Shown: positions 959-64,000 of the stretch, one piece after another
Layout: each line of letters starts with the position of its first letter
How positions within the stretch are numbered: position 1 is the stretch's first letter
Assembly: GCF_032854445.1 (NCBI RefSeq)
Contig: NC_088295.1
Location: 18,401,385-18,465,384, forward strand
Length of the DNA: 64,000 nt
Direction of reading: 5' to 3'
Source: Liolophura sinensis
Lineage: Eukaryota > Mollusca > Polyplacophora > Chitonida > Chitonidae
The notes under the pieces: generated by a model
The model's database searches: none
What the model was told of the DNA's origin: nothing
Seen by the model: the letters and a program-made list of their open reading frames with translations, nothing else
Made by a program: the position numbers and the translations under genes

Positions 959-3900
959 GAACTGTCGAGATTTTTCTCTCTCTAGACAATTGTGCCGTAC
1001 AGAACCAAAAAAGGAATATTTTTTACATTTATCGGGGATTTTTTAGAGAAAAGAAATCATTGGGTAATACTGATCCGTAATATGGGCTAGTTTATGGGGC
1101 TCCATGCTTGTTTCGGAAGATGAACTTCAAATTTCTGATGTCAAATGTTCATAGGGTGTAGTCGATTGATTACACAGGTCGATGTTGCGCACATACATAT
1201 AAAGTTCAGAAATATTTTATATGCGAAAAAGCCCGTTTAAATAAGAAAGATAAAGTGTCAATCTCAAAGCCGCACAGTTGATAATACGGCAAAGACAGTG
1301 CTGTCAGATCAGTTGGCTGTTTTGTGCCTCAGCTATGAAATGGTTTCTCTAAAAAAACGAATGTCGGGGTCGCGTCGTAACCGCATGGTGAAGACGATTG
1401 CCTTAATTACTAAATGTAGCCACGGACGTGAGCGGAACACCATTCTCGGGCAGGTTCATTTCTAAGGTACCAGCTTCCATGTCAAGTTATATCGGGGCCT
1501 TGATGTTCGCCAGTAACTTGCCAAATGTCAGGGTTTACTCCGTACATTCCAGTTTTCTCATACACTGCTCGCCATCACGTCAATGAAAATTCTCAAGTAT
1601 ACAATTTACATTTTACAATCGAATAAACAAAAGAAACATAAAATGTATCTATTGACATTTTTTTATTGCTCTTTTACATTGTATTCAGTAATATTTCACC
1701 TCTCAAATAGTGATTGCGTTTTTACGTTGGGGAAACCGGGGAAATCGTCAAGTGCAAGTTGTTGGGGTAACCCGATTGACAAGAGGAAGCGTGTCTCGCA
1801 CACAAAGATGATGCACTCATACGGTGGCAGTGAGTTTTATGACCAAACCCATTCTCGCTGTATCACGGGTAACCTCATGGCATCTGTAGAGGATAAATCG
1901 AGTTCATCTCAAATAGATGCAGCACGATTCGACTAGAAGAGTGCTATAGCGAATGGGCCGCTTCATGTGAACAATCCGACTAGCATTCTTAAGTGTGCGA
2001 TCATACAACGTGAATTCTTGTATATAGAAACATGAGGTATACGTTTCAGTCATCTAAAACTTATGCATAAAAAGTAAAATTAGGTTACGTGCAGGTTGTT
2101 TCAGGTCACGGTGACCATACATTATGTGAATACCGCTTCTTAAAACTTGAGTAAAATGGGCTTTACCTTGACCAGCGTTTGACACGTTTATAATAGCTAT
2201 ACAGTCGAGAGCACTATAAACTGTCATGTGACGAGTGCTTGACACAAAGAAAACAAGGCTGTACATATACTGGGGGTATAAATAAGCTAAAATTGCTGAC
2301 AAGTGGCTGTTCAGCAAGGGTTAATATCCTAACAAACATTAATACTTGGGCTTGTATTACTGGATATGCCTATCGTGGTCATATTACCGGGTGCCTATAT
2401 TTATACATTAAAGTTCTTCAGACGTTCATTTGAATCGGCATCTGTACATCATCATATATGACAGTTAGACTTACAGTACGATATACAAACAGCTATTTCC
2501 GATGTACCCGACATAGGCCTACATAAACAGATTAATCCGTTTGAATAGTTTGAATTCTCGCATTCAGTTACGGTAGTACATCTAGGCAATGTTAATTCGC
2601 TTTTTATTTATCTGATTTCTTTATTGACCATATCTTGGAATATTTCATTAATAACCCTCTTTTGTAGAAAAAACATCTCCAAACTAACATCGACAGACTA
2701 TAGCGATACTCAACAAACTCTCCGACACAGTATGCAGATATATAGGCCTAAGTTCCTCTCTCGGAGGTCATGTTGAGGTGTAAATGCTATATACTTAGTG
2801 TATCTCGTGACTTTAATATTCATATCTGCAAATCCGAGTTAACGATAACATTCAATTGTCCCGTTACGTACATATACAAGTCCAGCTGATAACCATTTAA
2901 TAACCAAGCTGACAATCAGCCCTGGATAGAGGCGGACGTGTTTGCGCATCAGCGAGGCTAGTAAAGGGACATCACTCTTACAAGGGCATCGTCCGGCTCT
3001 GGGGTCCGCCCATTCTACCATTCCTTTCTTTTTCGTAATTCTCAACGCAGCAGTATATCATATAAAGTACAGAGCACGGAAACATGGAGGAAACTTTAAA
3101 GGTAGGATACCACAGTAAACCTGTAGCATGACCTATATGTTCAACTCTGCAGCAGAGCTGAGAGATCATGCACGGTCCCTGAGATCTCGATATAGGCTAG
3201 ATGTATATGGTTTTAACGTTTGTGTATGGCGCTGCTTGGTGCCGTGTCTGTTAAACCAGTCAGCTGGTAATATTAATTTCTAGTTGACATTCAGATCTAC
3301 ATTAAACTGCCTTAACGGGTTGACAAGCGCATACATATCACTTGTATGATAAATGACTTGGCCTGATTAATTTAGTTCAGTCACAAAATGTCCCCGTTAG
3401 TAAGGGGAGGTAAATCTTTATAGCGTTAGTTCACCGTGTATACTGGGCCAATATAGTCTGTCTCTGTCCATAGCTTGTTCTCCTCTTGTATAAACAGGAT
3501 TCCCATGGTTTTCCATTTGTCGTACCTCATTGCTTGTCCACTAGATTTGTTTAATTTTTGCAAATCCCATGCACGTTTAATAATTTGGAGAATACGTTTG
3601 GATTAGGCCTGCCAACTACATATAATTCTGGATATAATTTACATCAAGCTGTTGTTGGTTTTACCGCTTAGAACTGAATTCCCCATCCCTCTGTCCTCAT
3701 GCCGATGTGAATTAAAGACTTGGCTCTACCACAGACTCATATGTTATTTTGTCTGCTTCGTTATTTGACTTGCATGGCAATGTACGGAAAAATCTGCGTT
3801 TCGTGAATATAAGACGCTTACAGTTCTCATGAAAAAAAAAAAAAACGTATAGGCCCATTGTTTGTCAGACACTGGATTCCCCAATGTGGCTGGTCATCGT

Positions 3901-9500: not shown

Positions 9501-12500
9501 ACTGAATGTGCGCTTTAACGAGGATTCTGCTTGTCGACTAAGAGTCCACGAGGCTTGGTCCGTTTGAATTGTTTTTCTGTTCTTTTTTATTAAATGTCAT
9601 TGCACACAAGATGCGAGTAATTCTAGGCTAGTGCGTCTACTAAATTGTAATTAACATCATTGCATTTTGTTAACATAATTCTGCCTCAGCCATGCTGCTA
9701 TAGGGGTGTTTAAGTTCCTATTATTTAAGCAATTGCATGACAATGCCGTGGATGCTCTGGTTTTACTCTCCATGCAAGTGTTTATATTGTATGTCCACAC
9801 AAACGAGGATTCTGCGGGTGGACTAAGAATCCCCGAGGCCTGGTCCTCTTTCATTGTTTTAATGTGATTGTATGTTAAATGTGATGACCACACAACCTTT
9901 GAATAATTCTAAACCATTAACAGCTAATAGATTGCCATTACCATCACCGCATGTTTTGCACCTAATTCTGCTTAAGTCATTATGATAGGGGACGTATAAG
10001 TTTCTACATGTACTGATTAATTAAGCATTTAGGTTACCAGCTTGATTAAAACCGGGTTTTCTAGGTTACGTGGAACCATTTTTCAAGTATCACACTGTCG
10101 CCACTTGCTCTAATGTTTATGTGAGCATATTTTTTTTAAACATTCTTATAATCTGTTTAAACAGTTAGCGGTACGCTGGGTGAAGGTATCGCTATGACGT
10201 TAGAAGAAAGAAAGCGTGTTACTGAAGCTTGGGTTGCTGCAGCTAAAGGGAGGTAACTATAGTTTCATTTCCTCAATCACTCAAAAGCTGTGGGGCTTAG
10301 TCTTGCTTAATCCGGCGTCGGTTTGTGCTTTTCGACACGATCATTATAACTGTGATCCAACTACAGCGTATTCTAGGTGTAATTGGTTGATTCTTTCATT
10401 TTCATTTGTTGCCAAAGACGAAATTCAGCGTTCGAAACTTCATTCTTATAATTTTGCCAATGAGACGACCGTATAACTTTTGACCCAGTCGTCTCCAAAC
10501 GACTATTTTGTCAAGAATTACTTTTGTGATGTGGCCATAACGTGTGAGTGGTAACCCATTAGGGTTGGTTTCGTTTGATTTCCTGACTGTGATGTAATGC
10601 TAATGTTTGAGATATTACAGTTCTTGTCGTTTGTCCGTGACTTGTCCCTACCTCTTCAGTTATTACTCTTCAAGGTACTTTTCTTGATGTCCATATGCAC
10701 TGTGACATGAGCGTAACTCTTCAGTATACTCTTGAGGATAGACTTCTCTACCTATAGATTTTGACAACGCGACAAAAGCGCTAAGTTAAAGTTTTAACAT
10801 ATCCTGCAGACTTCAGTACGTGGTGGCTCACATCGGAGCTGGGAACATGCACGACAGTATTGAGTTGGTGAGTAAATTGTTACAGCGGAGCTTTCATGAC
10901 GATGTCGATCCCCATGCTAATATGATCGTTTGAATTAATGAATAAAACAATCACATGGCTTGTCAGCTGACAAAGTCAGTTTAGTTAATATTAGTATAGT
11001 GACCTTGAATCTCTTTAAAATGGAAGCTGTGTTGTTGAGGTAAAGGCATAATCGGAATTATAGGTCGTAAAAAGTCCGTCAAAATTGTAATGTAAAAGTT
11101 GTATACGACCATATGTGAGAAATGTAATGTAAAAGTTACACACGACAGAATGTGAGAAACGTAATGTAAAAGTTACACACGACAGAATGTGAGAAACGTA
11201 ATGTAAAAGTTACACACGACCGAATGTGGGAAATGTAATGTAAAAGTTACACACGACCGAATGTGGGAAATGTAATGTAAAAGTTACACACGACCGAATG
11301 TGGGAAATGTAATGTAAAAGTTACACACGACCGAATGTGGGAAATGTAATGTAAAAGTTACACACGACCGAATGTGAGAAACGTAATGTAAAAGTTACAC
11401 ACGACCGAATGTGGGAAATGTAATGTAAAAGTTACACACGACCGAATGTGGGAAATGTAATGTAAAAGTTACACACGACCGAATGTGGGAAATGTAATGT
11501 AAAAGTTACACACGACCGAATGTGGGAAATGTAATGTAAAAGTTACACACGACCGAATGTGAGAAACGTAATGTAAAAGTTACACACGACCGAATGTGAG
11601 AAATGTAATGTAAAAGTTACACACGACCGAATGTGGGAAATGTAATGTAAAAGTTACACACGACCGAATGTGGGAAATGTAATGTAAAAGTTACACACGA
11701 CCGAATGTGAGAAATGTAATGTAAAAGTAGTTGTTTCGTATATATGATACGTCTCTGAAAAACGTAATGTAAAATGAATGCATGCTGTAAGAGATGTATA
11801 ATGTTAAAGATATATCCGTTGTTTGGAAAGTAAACAGTGTATAAAGCCGATCAAGTGAAAATTGGAGTTATTGTTTTAGGCGAAACACGCGGAGAAGGCC
11901 GGTGTCTGTGCTATATCATGTGTGTGTCCTACATACTTCAAGGCTACTTCAGTTGGTGAGTGTAGGTGGAACATGTATCTCGTCTATATCTTGTACAGAA
12001 CAAATTATATCTTGGATAGACAAATAATTCTGGGTTAAACCAGAAGTTACAGTAACAGGATGGCCAGCGAAAATTGTAAATCAAGAAGTAGTGAGAAAAC
12101 TTCATTTATCATTCACATAGTTATCATGCTTTGAAAAACATCTTCGTGAACATTTACGGAATTTCCAGATAATTACAAGTGTATTTTGGAATCTACTGCT
12201 TTTCACATTTTTTTTTTTCGGCAGAGGGGCTGATACTTTACATGAAACACGTGGCGGCGGCCGTGCCCACTTTACCATTTTACCTGTATGAGATTAACCA
12301 AGTTACTGGAAACGTGGGTAAGTGTAACACCCTAACGTGGGTAAGTATAACACCCAAACGTGGGTAGGTATAACGCCCAAATGTGGGTAAGTGTAAGACC
12401 CAAACGTAGGTAAATGTAACATCCAAACATGGGTAAGTGAAACGCCCAAACGTGGATTAGTGTAACGCTAAAACGTGAGTAAACGTAACGTCCAAACGTG

Positions 12501-15500
12501 GGTAAGTGTAATGCTCAAACGTGGGTATGTGTAACGCCCAAACGCGGGTAAGTACAACGCCCAAACGTGGTTAAGTATAACGCCCAAAAGTGGGCAAGTG
12601 TAACGCCCAAACGTAAGCGTAACACCCAAACGTGGGTAAGTATAACGCCTAAACGGGGGTAAGTGTAACACCCAAACGTGAGTAAGTGTAACACCCAAAC
12701 GTGGGTAAGTGTAACGCCAAAACGTGGGTAAGTGTGGCACCCAAACGTGGGTAAATGTAACACCCAAACGTGGGTAAGTGTAAAACCCAAGCGTGGGTAA
12801 GTTCAACACCCAAAAGTGGATAAGTGTAACACCCAAATTTTGTTCTATACAATCAGTTATGCTGTCCCCTCTTGAAAAGGGGAGGGGGGAGGGGGTCCTT
12901 GGAGTTTTAGATATGTAATGAATTTCATGGTTTTCATTGTACCCTGAATTTTATGCAGTAACTGGTCCAATTACTGTTTGATCCTTACATAAGATTTGCA
13001 CATATCATTATGTCCTCGAACCTGGTTGGATGTGAGTCAGGTTCTGTAATTTTGTCGAATCTTGAAATCCAATCAGAATCGTCAATCCCACCAATCACGT
13101 CAATTACATTGCTTATATGAGCTCTCAATTCACATCTGAAAATCATCTCCATTCATGCTTAAGTTTTTCATATTTTATGAATTTCGTGACCTTTCGGATC
13201 CTCGCATAAGTTTTGCATATGTAAGGATATTCTAAATGATCGTTGGTTCATGCGCAATAACTGCTTCAAGTATTGCTTGATTTTAATGAAATTTTGTGTT
13301 CAGGTTCGTTTGTGGCTCTTCATGTCAGAATTTAGTGTGTTTCCTTCGTTCTTCTTGACCGAAGCTTTCCCTGCTATAACTGCTCCAAATACTCTCCGAG
13401 CTAGATAAGATTTTGGTCGCAAATTCAAGATAAATGAAACATAACATGAAGCGCGGTAACCAGTCAGTTCCGTGCATAAGTTTTGCATATTTATCGATTT
13501 CAGTGATTTTGATTGGTCGTTGGTTAACGCGCAATAGCTGCTTGATAATATTGTGCGATTTATTGTGCGTGGAGGTTCAGTTTGTAAGCCCTCAGCTCAA
13601 GTTTAAAACCAGCTTAATCCTTACATGTTTTTTCTATATTTAGAGTGAATATAAAAGCCCTGAAATTAGCTTTGTATGCCCTCTCAATACTCTCGCCATG
13701 CAGCGGTAGGGTCATCATTAGATATTAGGTAGCAAGTCAGGGACTAAATTTATCAAACCACTGAAGTTAAAAATTCAAACAGAGCTACGATAAAAATATT
13801 TTACTCTTGAAAGCTGGAAATTTTTACAGATTCTTTACTGCAGAATAATGTACCAACCACAATTTGAGTTCCTTCTTGTTCTGAATATGGCTTTATAAGC
13901 ACTTGAAATTCATGGCTTAAATCTTGACTTGTTTGATAAATACGAGCCCAGGTGTTTTTGTAATTTGCCAATGTTTTGAAAACTTTTCTTGAAAAAGAAA
14001 AAAAACAAGGTTGGGGGAATCGATACTCACAAAGTATTGATTGTATCTCATCGTATTTCCAATCTAATGAAGCTAGAGCAGCGGTTTGGACTGTGGCTGT
14101 GTGCATTTATGCACAAGGATAAGAGACTTACATGCTTATAATTGCAATTGGCTTACTCTTGCCGCTTTGGATTCTTCCATCCGTAAACGTGACTGCCGTC
14201 ATAGAAGTGAAAATTCTTAAGTATGCAGGCGTTAAACACTAATCAAATAAATTGCAAATGGCGACAGTTGTTAATCAAGTTTGTTTGTTTTCTTGCATCG
14301 GATTTTTTAATCGCTTTATCCATTAATTGGGTTATATCACTAGAATGTCCTCTTTGGGCAAGCCGATGCACAATGACGAAAAATTTATACTGCTGTATCT
14401 CTGGAACTGTTCTATTAATGATGGTGGTACAAGAAAATCTATGAATCTTTAAATCTATCGAAGACACCAGATTGAACGCACTGTATACCCAGTCACAGTA
14501 TATACTGACACCAAACTGATCAGTTCTAAAGTCTTGGACATAGTATTCCATGTTGAAAGTGCCTCGCCAGTATTAAATTCTTGTTTGGTGTATGTTGCCA
14601 GTGGACATCGAAAAGTTCTTCGCCCAGGTCAAATCGCAAATTCCAACTCTCCGCGGCATGAAATATTCCAACCTGTATGTGCCGGCTGGTTATAATGTAG
14701 CTCAGATGGAGAACGGCAGATTCCAGGTCATGACTGGTACTGACGAGGTAGGTCCGGACGGCGTCACGCAAAGTGATTCTTACACCAACAATGATACTAA
14801 CATTGCCATGTCATGTATATAGCGCCATCGTGTCTAAGGCTATCTTGCCCATGACAATCATCAATGGTGTATAAAAATGTCCACTAATCTGGAAAGCTCC
14901 TGTAATAGGTCCCTAAACTGTGGTTTGTTCATACCATGAAACGCAGGGCGAGTTGTTCCAATCTATGTATGGTGTAATTCTCTTTTGAGAGCGACTCCCA
15001 CCATCATCAGAAATGATACACACAAAAGAACGGAAAAGAAAATCCACCATTTATAAATAATATTAAATAATGTAATTTTACATATATTATGTATATTCAT
15101 GCTTATTAATGCGAAATAGGTTTAACACCAAAACACAAACACTACATATAGAATCCCATAGAACAATGTTTGGTGTTGCTATTCCCAGCAAATGCTTGCA
15201 ACTGCCTCCTTGGGCCTCACCGTGAACATCGTGAATGCACATGTGGGTTACTTCTCCGTAAAGCTCTTAAAAGCCGTCCAGGAGGGGAACTTAAAGGAAG
15301 CTCAGAAGCAACAGGTAAGTAAATAGTCATAAGCCATCCGTGACTTAGCTTAATTTGGAAATAGTTTTGCATATTTTCAACAGATAACAATTATATAGCT
15401 ATCGCTAAACTGTGCTTATTTGACATTCATATCAATTGCAACGATCAGTTAATTTTTTTTCGAATTCCAGGTAAGGCTCCAGAAATTACGTAACCTGTTG

Positions 15501-17709: not shown

Positions 17710-20700
17710 TTAGTCCAACTCAGACATGTCGTTTGTAACGCCTGTGCTCACAGAGTTTAAAGAGGGTCCATTTATAATGTTCGCGGGATCTTTGAGGATT
17801 GTTTGTCCATTACCAAGGGCTTCTTTAGAGTACTGTAGGTGAGGCGTTACAGAGCCGTTCACCTTTGGCGTTTCCGTGGACAGGACAGTGAGTTCTCCGA
17901 CCGACCCGACCTTCTCCGCCAGGGCTATGTGCTCCTCTTCGATGTTCACCACACATTTGAATACGTCATGACGCTTCTGTAGATAACCGTTCTCGAACAG
18001 GAACTTGCTCCCGTAGGAAAATATTAAAATTGAAGCGAAATTCAGCAACATGGAAAACGTCTTGAAGGGAAACTGCTGGCCATACTCGTCCGTGTAGAGG
18101 GGATATTTGATAAGGGGAGGTAAACGCAGCATGGGTTCCCCTCCCGCCAGGCGGAAGAACAGACCAACCAGATAGCCGGCGAGTGACCCGTATGTGTTAG
18201 TGTCCTTCAGGTAAACCACTGATATCAGCTGGGGAAATAGTATAACATAGACGAGGTCAGAGCACAGGTACCACAGACCATATATAGAGTCTACAAATAT
18301 CGCCATTAACGTCGCCATGAGACCGACACCGAAAATAGCCACTCTCATCACACGCAAGATCTCAATTTCGGATGCCTGGAGGAAAGAAGGAACAACCAGT
18401 TAGAAAAGAGCATTAAAACTGCAAGCATGTGGGACGTCTGCACCGCTGTTTAAGCCATATAATGCTCAACCAGTTGTTATGAATGTATACCTTATATTCT
18501 GATATGTGTAAAATTTCATTCGGGTCAAGAATCGATGGTAATTTGTGCTCTTACATTTTGCCGTAAGATGGTTTTGTGAATGTTCCTAGCGTACATCGAG
18601 CTGGCTGAAAGGATAGAGGAATCGGCTGATGACATCACCGCAGCAGAAATGGCGCCCAGCCCAATGAAGGAAATGGCATCAGGACATAAGTACTGCAGTA
18701 CCAGGGGAAGAATTAGCTTCATGTCTTTAGGAGGTATGGGTTTCTCACCAGCGTACGATGTCAGGTTCCAGTCTGTTTACAACAAGAAAGCAAGATGGCA
18801 AACATGTGTTCTTGTGCAGAATTGCACCTATGTCAGTAATTTGTTCGTCTGGAAACAAGAAAAGAAACTGAAACTGAGTTATATAGCATTTGTCATTGTA
18901 GTACTGGAAATGTGCAATTCACTTCACTGATTTCGTTTTAGCATCATTTTACGTATTTCTATAATATAGTAAACTGATCCATTTCTCTACCTGTTTCTGC
19001 TGCCACGGCGCCAATAAGAACAGCCGGGGCGGCCATGATGATGCAACCAAAGGCTGCAATGTATGAGAGGAACTGAGCCCGGAATGCTGTCTTGGAGGAC
19101 AGGACTCGCTGAAAGTACACCTGAACAAGGAAAGATGAACATATTATAGCATGTGCGCTAAAGTCCTTAGTAATTGCTGCTCTCAAGACCCAACATTCAA
19201 AAAGAGTGTTTCGTTGTGCAGCAATAATATACAGGATTATTGACAAACCTTGTGTCACTTAAAACTATAGCCTATAGTCAGTGGTAACATATATTGTAAA
19301 ACCTGTAACTCCAAAGAGATTGTTTCGTTTGGCAGTGGTACTACAAAATTATTCATAAAAACCAATAATGCAACTGCTCAGAGTTTTCCGGATGACAATT
19401 TGGGAGGGTTTGCGGAGTGATAATTTAGGAGGATTTTCTGGGTGACAATTTGGGAGGGTTTTCTGGGTGACAATTTGGGAGGATTTTCTGGGTGACAATT
19501 TGGGAGGGTTTGCCGGGTGACAATTTGGGAGGGTTTTCTGGGTGACAATTTGGGAGGGTTTTTTGGGTGACAATTTGGGAGGATTTTCTGGGTGACAATT
19601 TGGGAGGGTTTGCCGGGTGACAATTTGGGAGGGTTTTCTGGGTGACAATTTGGGAGGATTTTCTGGGTGACAATTTGGGAGGGTTTTCTGGGTGACAATT
19701 TGGGAGGTTTTTCTGGGTGACAATTTGGGAGGGTTTGCTAGGTGACGATTTGGGAGGATTTTCTGGGTGACAATTTGGGAGGGTTTGCCGGGTGACAATT
19801 TGGGAGAGTTTTCTGCTTGACAATTTGGGAGAGTTTTCTGGGTGAGAATTTGGGAGGATTTTCTGGGTGAGAATTTGGGAGGATTTTCTGGTTGACAATT
19901 TGGGAGGATTTTCTGCTTGACAATTTGGGAAAGTTTTCTGGGTGAGAATTTGGGAGGGTTTTCCGGGTGACATTTTGGGAGGGTTTGCTAGGTGACGATT
20001 TGTGAGGGTTTTCTGGGTGACAATTTGGGAGGGTTTTCTGGTTGATCATTTGAGAAGGTTTTCTGGATGACAGTTTGAAATGATTTTTTTTTTTTGATGA
20101 TAATTTGGGAGGTTTTCCTGGATGACAATTTGGGAGGGTTTTCTGAAGGACAATTTTTTTTTTCTTTACGAACCTGCCATGGAACTCCTCCGAAAGTGAG
20201 CAGCAAAAAGCTGTCGACGTAACTGCCAGCGGTGTTAGGGTCAAGAGGCGTGACCCAGACCTCAGTGGCGTTGAGAGACAGGCTTCCTACAGCCTCATTG
20301 GTCATCGCAAACGGTATACAGACCCACTGTAAAAAAGCAAAATCAAGGAGTTTGAATCGGCCGATTGAATCCTGCACTTTACCCTTAAAGAAATCCCATT
20401 TAAAGTTATCCGATGAGTTCAATGACATTGCAAACATTTCACATTATATTTATTTTATTTGTCTGATTGCTGTTTAACGCCATTCCCAAGAATTTTTCAC
20501 CAATATGATGATGGTCGGTTTTATGAGCAGAGATAACCGGATAACCGGTTTTCAAAAGGAGTCAAACTGTTGTCGATCGTCTATTGTCACTCACATACAC
20601 TAAGACTGGGGAAGACAGACAAACGTATTGACCAATCGACGAACCTCTCCCAGAAACATTGAAGCTCACAATACAATATGTCTATCAGAAAGACATATTT

Positions 20701-62587: not shown

Positions 62588-64000
62588 GTACCACTGATGG
62601 AGTTTGGACCCTTCAGACTTTGGATAAGAACAGGTATCTCATGTTATGGGGATGTAAAGTGGGATACCACTGTTTGGGGGACAGGAGTTTGAACCCTTCC
62701 CACCGAGGATATGAGTTAGTATCTCATGTTATGGGGATGTAAGGTAGGATACCTCTGTTTGGGGGACAGGAGTTCGAACCCTTCCCACTGAGGATATGAG
62801 TTAGTATCTCATGTTTTGGAGATGTAAGGTGGGAAACCACTGTTTGGGGGACAGGAGTTTGAACCCTTCCCACTGAGGATATGAGTTAGTATCTCATGTT
62901 ATGGGGATGTAAGGTGGGAAACCACTGTTTGGGGGACAGGAGTTTGAACCCTTCCCACTGAGGATATGAGTTAGTATCTCATGTTATGGGGATATAAGGT
63001 AGGATACCACTGACTGGGGGACAGGAATTTGAACCCTTCCCACTGAGGATATGAGTTAGTATCTCATTTTTTGGGGATGTAAGGTAGGATACCACTGACT
63101 GGGTTACAGGAGTTTGGACCCTTCAGACTGAGGATAAGAGTTGGTATATCATGTTATGGGGATGTAAGGTAGGATACCACTGTTTGAGGGACAGGAATTT
63201 GGACTCTTCCCACCGAGGATATGAGTTAGTATCTCATGTTATGGGGATGTAAGGTAGGATACCACTGTTTGGGGGACAGGAGTTTGAACCCTTCCCACTG
63301 AGGATATGAGTTGGTATATCATGTTATGGGGGTATAAGGTGGGATACAACTGACTGGGGACAGGAGTTTGGACCCTTCCCACTGAGGATATGAGTTAGTA
63401 TCTCATGTTATGGGGATGTAAGGTAGGATACCACTGTTTGAGGGACAGGAGTTTGAACCCTTCCCACCGAGGATATGAGTTAGTATCTCATGTTATGGGG
63501 ATGTAAGGTAGGATACCTCTGTTTGGGGGACAGGAGTTCGAACCCTTCCCACTGAGGATATGAGTTAGTATCTCATGTTTTGGGGATGTAAGGTAGGATA
63601 CCACTGTTTGAGGAACAGGAGTTTGAACCCTTCCCACTGAGGATATGAGTTAGTATCTCATGTTATGGGGATGTAAGGTAGGATACCTCTGTTTGGGGGA
63701 CAGGAGTTTGAACCCTTCCCACTGAGGATATAAGATAGTATCTCATGTTATGGGGATGTAAGGTAGGATACCACTGTTTGAGGAACAGGAGTTTGAACCC
63801 TTGCCACTGAGGATATGAGTTAGTATCTCATGTTATGGGGATGTAAGGTAGGATACCACTGTTTGAGGGACAAGAATTTGGACTCTTCCCACCGAGGATA
63901 TGAGTTAATATCTCATGTTATGGGGATGTAAGGTAGGATACCACTGTTTGGGGGACAGGAGTTTGAACCCTTCCCACTGAGGATATGAGTTGGTATATCA
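62588..64000 (+). repeat. 85-bp minisatellite running off the window end
   Basis: About 16 copies with a period of exactly 85 bp (ATGAGTTAGTATCTCATGTT at 62711, 62796, 62881, 62966 and onward), unit also holding GGGGATGTAAGGTAGGATAC and GGAGTTTGAACCCTTCCCAC. Loosely similar, much decayed wording from about 62215 to 62587 suggests older copies. It probably lies in intron 1 of choline transporter B and continues to the right. Confidence 0.95.

Follow-up and report, generated by a model that had tools for sequence, protein, structure and literature searches.

A tandem array of splice donors in a chiton N-acetylneuraminate lyase gene, probably a mirage born at an exon end

In the chiton Liolophura sinensis, a predicted splice donor of the gene for N-acetylneuraminate lyase (NPL) is followed by a minisatellite made of further copies of itself, which raises the question of what becomes of so many donors in a row: whether they compete with the first one, assist it, or are simply passed over. 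We analyzed the locus in a window of 64,000 nucleotides (nt), i.e. the whole stretch of contig NC_088295.1 from 18,401,385 to 18,465,384 (assembly GCF_032854445.1, forward strand), to which coordinates given without a contig refer. The array is quite probably a mirage, a repeat spanning an exon-intron boundary with splice signals in its units, which was born by tandem duplication of the NPL exon-donor junction, whose downstream donors are predicted to be passed over and which would leave with the intron.

As the first-pass annotation of this DNA had proposed, a donor-bearing minisatellite is indeed present at 12310-12837, where Tandem Repeats Finder (TRF) reports a 23-bp unit in 23.1 copies with 80% matches and a score of 643; the source assembly also holds this array DNA, at G000:C1:18413634-18414234. 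The features that bear on the argument are listed here, a slash marking the exon-intron border in this list and below.

11956-12224, forward strand: intron upstream of the array-bearing exon, 269 nt, from the coding model
12225-12317, forward strand: NPL coding exon of 93 nt, ending ...AACGTGG/GTAAGT with its 8 last nt inside copy 1 (borders and frame, PF00701, 6arh)
12310-12837, forward strand: minisatellite (probable mirage), 23 copies of a 23-bp unit over the exon end and donor (TRF, copy segmentation)
12310-12332, forward strand: copy 1, which matches the consensus exactly and holds the exon-donor junction predicted to be in use
12318-12323, forward strand: predicted real donor GTAAGT, phase compatible with the acceptor exon 14602-14747
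12318-14601, forward strand: host intron, 2284 nt, from the coding model
12333-12837, forward strand: the remaining 22 copies, 17 of which have GT where the donor would lie and 12 GTAAGT
12365-12367, forward strand: TAG within copy 3, in frame with the exon, stopping all transcripts that use donors from copy 4 on
14602-14747, forward strand: next NPL exon, carrying an invariant lysine (K177 of the model), which would be lost or shifted if a decoy were used

The unit, AAACGTGG/GTAAGTGTAACACCC, comprises the 8 terminal nt of the exon and the 15 opening nt of the intron, and it therefore spans the boundary in the manner previously read from this locus. Splice signals recur in the units, and the earlier figure of about 22 donor-like sites is right for the copies but not for the donors, which number 17 of 22 by GT, 12 of 22 by GTAAGT and 9 by TGG/GTAAGT. 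Likewise, the rule that use of copy n adds 23n bases holds up to copy 14, which is 4 nt short, and hence not beyond it.

The host gene is predicted to encode NPL in 11 exons with a single open frame of 312 amino acids; ten combinations of exon borders stayed open, and the one chosen preserves the family sequence. Its product matches the Pfam family PF00701 (8.5e-46) and the PDB N-acetylneuraminate lyase 6arh (2.4e-50). The array-bearing exon had been called exon 6, which is correct if the 18-nt first coding exon (3084-3101) is left out, whereas counting it makes this exon 7 of 11. The invariant lysine of the next exon is, we presume, the catalytic one. The gene appears to be single copy in the assembly: no paralog with a matching intron was seen there and, apart from its own exons, the sole match is an intronless NPL-family frame of 344 open codons and 25% identity at G000:C6:30784246-30785112, which might represent a different aldolase of this family, or else foreign DNA. 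A different NPL intron holds a 37-bp minisatellite (11086-11728; 17.4 copies, 96% matches) that is much more homogeneous than the donor array.

All 17 decoys with a GT would lead to a premature stop, those in copies 2 and 3 by frameshift and the remainder at the TAG of 12365, whose place in the third unit had been correctly noted, and these stops fall 221-744 nt upstream of the last junction. It had also been proposed that the frame is kept when n is a multiple of three; no such decoy gives an in-frame product, because the TAG precedes every donor from copy 4 on. In terms of strength, 8 of the 12 GTAAGT decoys equal the real donor in pairing with U1 (-12.2 kcal/mol) and one is better (-13.0 kcal/mol), the real donor being itself second best among the 10 donors of the gene. 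If the changes of each copy are placed at random (column 20, an even A/G mix, being excluded), the decoys have retained just about what would be expected in the 21 full-length decoy copies: the donor GT is intact in 17 (17.2 expected), GTAAGT in 12 (11.2) and TGGGTAAGT in 9 (7.7). Within the power of 21 copies, the decoy donors thus decay neutrally, neither kept nor purged. Adjacent copies are no more similar to each other than shuffled ones (4.10 versus 4.18, P 0.35); hence no recent turnover is visible, and the array appears to date from an old burst of copying.

These observations can be accommodated in a simple scenario. A slip between AAA tracts lying 23 bp apart would have created the first duplicate, to be followed by a burst of copying. 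Such a duplication would keep the original junction and place the additional copies in the intron, and the array would therefore stay silent provided that the upstream donor is the one chosen. The first donor would be preferred over its downstream copies because introns of 269 and 2284 nt flank the 93-nt exon, a setting in which exon definition favors whichever donor is nearest to the acceptor. An mRNA made now and then from a decoy would carry an early stop and presumably be degraded. Consistent with this, a study on donor choice describes five minigenes with 365-nt flanking introns and two identical donors, in which the upstream one was used exclusively under exon definition, a mode that the same source places above about 250 nt of flanking intron (PMC9225289). 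Amphioxus mirages too are reported to leave regular splicing undisturbed (PMC3087553, PMC3902484).

Several points weigh against this scenario. The study of donor choice just mentioned also reports that the stronger donor was dominant in 86% of events (PMC9225289), and several NPL decoys match the real donor in strength. Once modeled structure is included, four different folding windows place the real donor only 2nd, 4th, 3rd and 5th among 18 by net energy of U1 pairing. In the PAH gene, a strengthened decoy at +18 was reportedly used in 8/30 and 26/30 clones (PMC5933811). Both the proximity rule and the PAH results are human data, and the host here is a mollusc. Finally, the match of copy 1 to the consensus, considered next, might stem from constraint.

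That the exon end seeded the array, as the first-pass annotation had it, is supported by several lines of evidence. Copy 1 is the sole consensus-identical copy among the 23, and its mean distance to the others is the smallest (2.57, against 3.33-6.00, in 22 full-length copies). Given that zero differences would arise by chance with a Poisson P of 0.08, and that both coding and splicing constrain copy 1, this match supports seeding and does not prove it. After the last copy the intron resumes with AAATTT and, with the repeats removed, AAA flanks the 23-bp segment on both sides, as would befit a slip between short matches. No gap is found around the exon-intron junction across 10 aligned members of the NPL family, which indicates that the array added no exon end. 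A search of the 609-Mb assembly that skips very common words found the array nowhere else, and two weaker matches on contig C9 are part of a different array with a 25-bp unit. The opposite order of events, in which a repeat that was older or came from elsewhere donated the donor and captured the exon end, is conceivable for a unit with a ready donor, and a single genome cannot date the array relative to the exon; yet in the face of the consensus identity of copy 1, the gap-free family alignment and the failure of that search to find the repeat elsewhere, we regard it as very improbable.

The array could, on the other hand, have acquired a function in NPL expression. It had been suggested that array length tunes splicing, with decoys competing for use, length determining what fraction of transcripts is stopped and hairpins governing access to the donors. 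The equal U1 pairing of so many decoys with the real donor would allow such competition, optimized decoys are reported to be usable (PMC5933811), mirage length is said to differ among lancelet individuals (PMC3087553) and, according to its title, an intronic variable number tandem repeat (VNTR) of ABCA7 affects splicing (PMC5954066). The hairpin component of this idea does not hold up well: TGGGT and ACCCA can pair as claimed inside one unit, and also across units by way of an AACG loop, but the resulting masking of donors is unexceptional. Folding of the array region does not stand out from that of 20 shuffles (z -0.57), and among 200 shuffled units 50 mask donors equally well; in a synthetic consensus array, opening costs 2.3 kcal/mol at the first donor versus about 4.8 at inner ones under short-range folding, a difference that vanishes for most copies with a window of 150. 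Hence, we rejected hairpin masking as a mechanism. Moreover, tuning sits poorly with decoys that decay at a random rate, with copies that betray no recent turnover, with 17 of 17 GT decoys stopping early so that none gives a longer in-frame protein, and with lancelet mirages that are reported to disturb nothing; we therefore find no support for it and consider it unlikely. Somewhat less likely still is that the copies aid the exon, U1 bound at nearby donor copies boosting recognition of the real donor, such that the array would act as an intronic enhancer made of decoys. There is a precedent in PAH exon 11, efficient splicing of which reportedly needs U1 at the weakly used +18 site (PMC5933811), and the first NPL decoy lies 23 nt past the real donor. 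However, the PAH effect is described as declining with distance, and most NPL copies are far off; further, the copies are not conserved beyond chance, and the real donor is strong already.

We hence favor the silent mirage, the sequence-based parts of which are the unit, its register, the consensus copy 1, the decoy stops, the neutral decay and the further arrays of the genome described below. The array probably does no harm to NPL, although gene predictors may mis-call the exon end.

The genome is rich in minisatellites: a sample of contig C1, drawn as twenty 10-kb slices at even distances and amounting to 195 kb once N are removed, contains 25 of them (period 10-100, at least 5 copies), which occupy 21.1 kb, or 10.8%, and are unevenly spread. 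The pattern GGTAAGTN{8,38}GGTAAGTN{8,38}GGTAAGT gave 658+703 = 1361 matches versus 743+1056 = 1799 for the backward pattern, these being counts of matches rather than of arrays, and the NPL array itself falling outside the pattern by one base of spacing; an excess of donor-bearing arrays was accordingly rejected. Among the matches listed, in the first 31 Mb of C1, we grouped 18 GGTAAGT arrays by hand and fetched the 5' side of all. At least 4 of the 18 start on an exon end supported by database matches, and two others lie close to an exon.

C1:14889300-14890600 (L028): exon end of RNA polymerase III RPC1, E 5.9e-8
C1:26352600-26353600 (L029): exon end of GH31, E 7e-13
C1:2772500-2773350 (L032): exon end of DUF4457, E 3.3e-15
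C1:26643800-26644750 (L040): exon end of a myosin head, E 2.2e-10
L042: array about 130 nt past a GMC oxidoreductase exon
L033: array beside an apparent exon on the opposite strand

Three further exon-end arrays (L027, L030 and L036) were judged by eye only; we take their exons to be polycystin-like (PDB E 0.26), GH18-like and TMC-like, respectively, the latter two having no database match. At L027 (G000:C1:3805300-3806300) the exon ends at an apparent GC donor, CAG/GCGAGT, and the array of CAG/GTAAGT copies starts about 8 nt later. No exon was seen at the 5' side of L026, L031, L035, L037, L038, L039 and L041; the 5' edge of L034 was not reached, and L025 is ambiguous. True exon ends are not in excess among these arrays, either by eye (7/18, versus 8/30, with one of the eight doubtful, for isolated GGTAAGT sites in the window and the sampled slices; Fisher P 0.52) or by database match at E 1e-3 (4/18 versus 3/30, P 0.40), the scanned peptides having been picked by eye for arrays and background alike (background 10/40). 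Since isolated GGTAAGT sites are similarly often real donors, the random birth of minisatellites over genes would suffice to explain these cases. Nor are unit lengths divisible by three enriched: they account for 2/5 of the database-supported arrays including that of NPL, and for 2/8 when the three judged by eye are added.

Two of these arrays differ from that of NPL in the strength of their first donor. In RPC1 the exon donor CAG/GTAAAT (-8.6 kcal/mol) is followed by a copy with CAG/GTAAGT (-13.2), and in GH31 the donor CAG/GTATGT (-8.6) by one with CAG/GTAAGT (-12.4), such that the first donor is about 4-5 kcal/mol weaker in U1 pairing than the next copy; in DUF4457 and myosin the first donor equals the GTAAGT copies. 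The next coding exon of GH31 lies, in two similar versions, downstream of the array. When it is joined to the first donor, residues 5-90 align with positions 206-291 of the Pfam profile at 140.1 bits and with no net gap, whereas the second donor gives a poorer alignment of 132.5 bits, broken into two stretches. It is hence the weaker, first donor that yields a protein like those of the family, in line with the scenario favored for NPL. The GH31 unit (L029/L044, G000:C1:26352600-26356000) is 39 bp long with a frame open through the first copies, and each early decoy would therefore add 13 residues in frame. The next exon of RPC1 was not seen in the 2.5 kb fetched, of which 1.4 kb is still array. 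Recurrent exon-end mirages might constitute a natural experiment in donor choice, in which either position beats strength far more strictly than in human genes or the genes pay a tunable cost in decoy transcripts that undergo degradation, a proposal to which we give slightly less than an even chance. As the arrays align one real donor with many near-identical ones at fixed spacing, they offer a test bed for whether the acceptor-nearest donor wins even when weaker.

Other repeats were encountered along the way. On the minus strand of the window, at 19383-20156, a 25-bp minisatellite of 30.8 copies, the unit of which has no donor, ends 17 nt inside an intron; the adjacent exon, from 20174 upward, we take to be choline transporter-like, its 54-residue piece having no Pfam match. 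An 85-bp tandem array of at least 16.5 copies at 62599-64000 continues past the window end. Elsewhere in the assembly, contig C8 carries a run of eight haemocyanin beta-sandwich units, as expected of a mollusc; 14 control genomes gave no match to them.

The closest known relatives of the NPL array are the mirages described in amphioxus from Adh3 and the globin genes BflGb6 and BflGb9, and reported also for TnC and PGBD5 (PMC3087553, PMC3902484); as portrayed there, they too are minisatellite-like tandem duplications over an exon-intron boundary with splice signals in many units. The scale and history differ: BflGb6 is described with 3 and 6 units of 150-160 bp and with recent homogenization, in contrast to the 23 copies of 23 bp in NPL and their lack of any sign of it. 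In human segmental-duplication genes, variable internal tandem repeats similarly reflect minisatellite expansion at exon-intron boundaries (PMC2812944), but the repeats outlined there have units of about 30 bp in 4 copies on average, and some are tied to novel introns, whereas NPL has 23 copies in an apparently single-copy gene. The ABCA7 VNTR (PMC5954066) is likewise an intronic tandem repeat; in NPL, however, the unit itself holds the donor. Undisturbed splicing is reported for the amphioxus mirages and, in its title, a splicing effect for the ABCA7 repeat; for the NPL array, undisturbed splicing is predicted. In the literature searched for boundary-spanning repeats and mirages we found no molluscan mirage; the class was described in cephalochordates, a host range that we take as description and not as definition. 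An array class known from lancelets is thereby extended to a mollusc and to several genes of one genome, and what is new relative to its known members is the molluscan host, the high copy number and the recurrence within one genome, twice with a weaker first donor.

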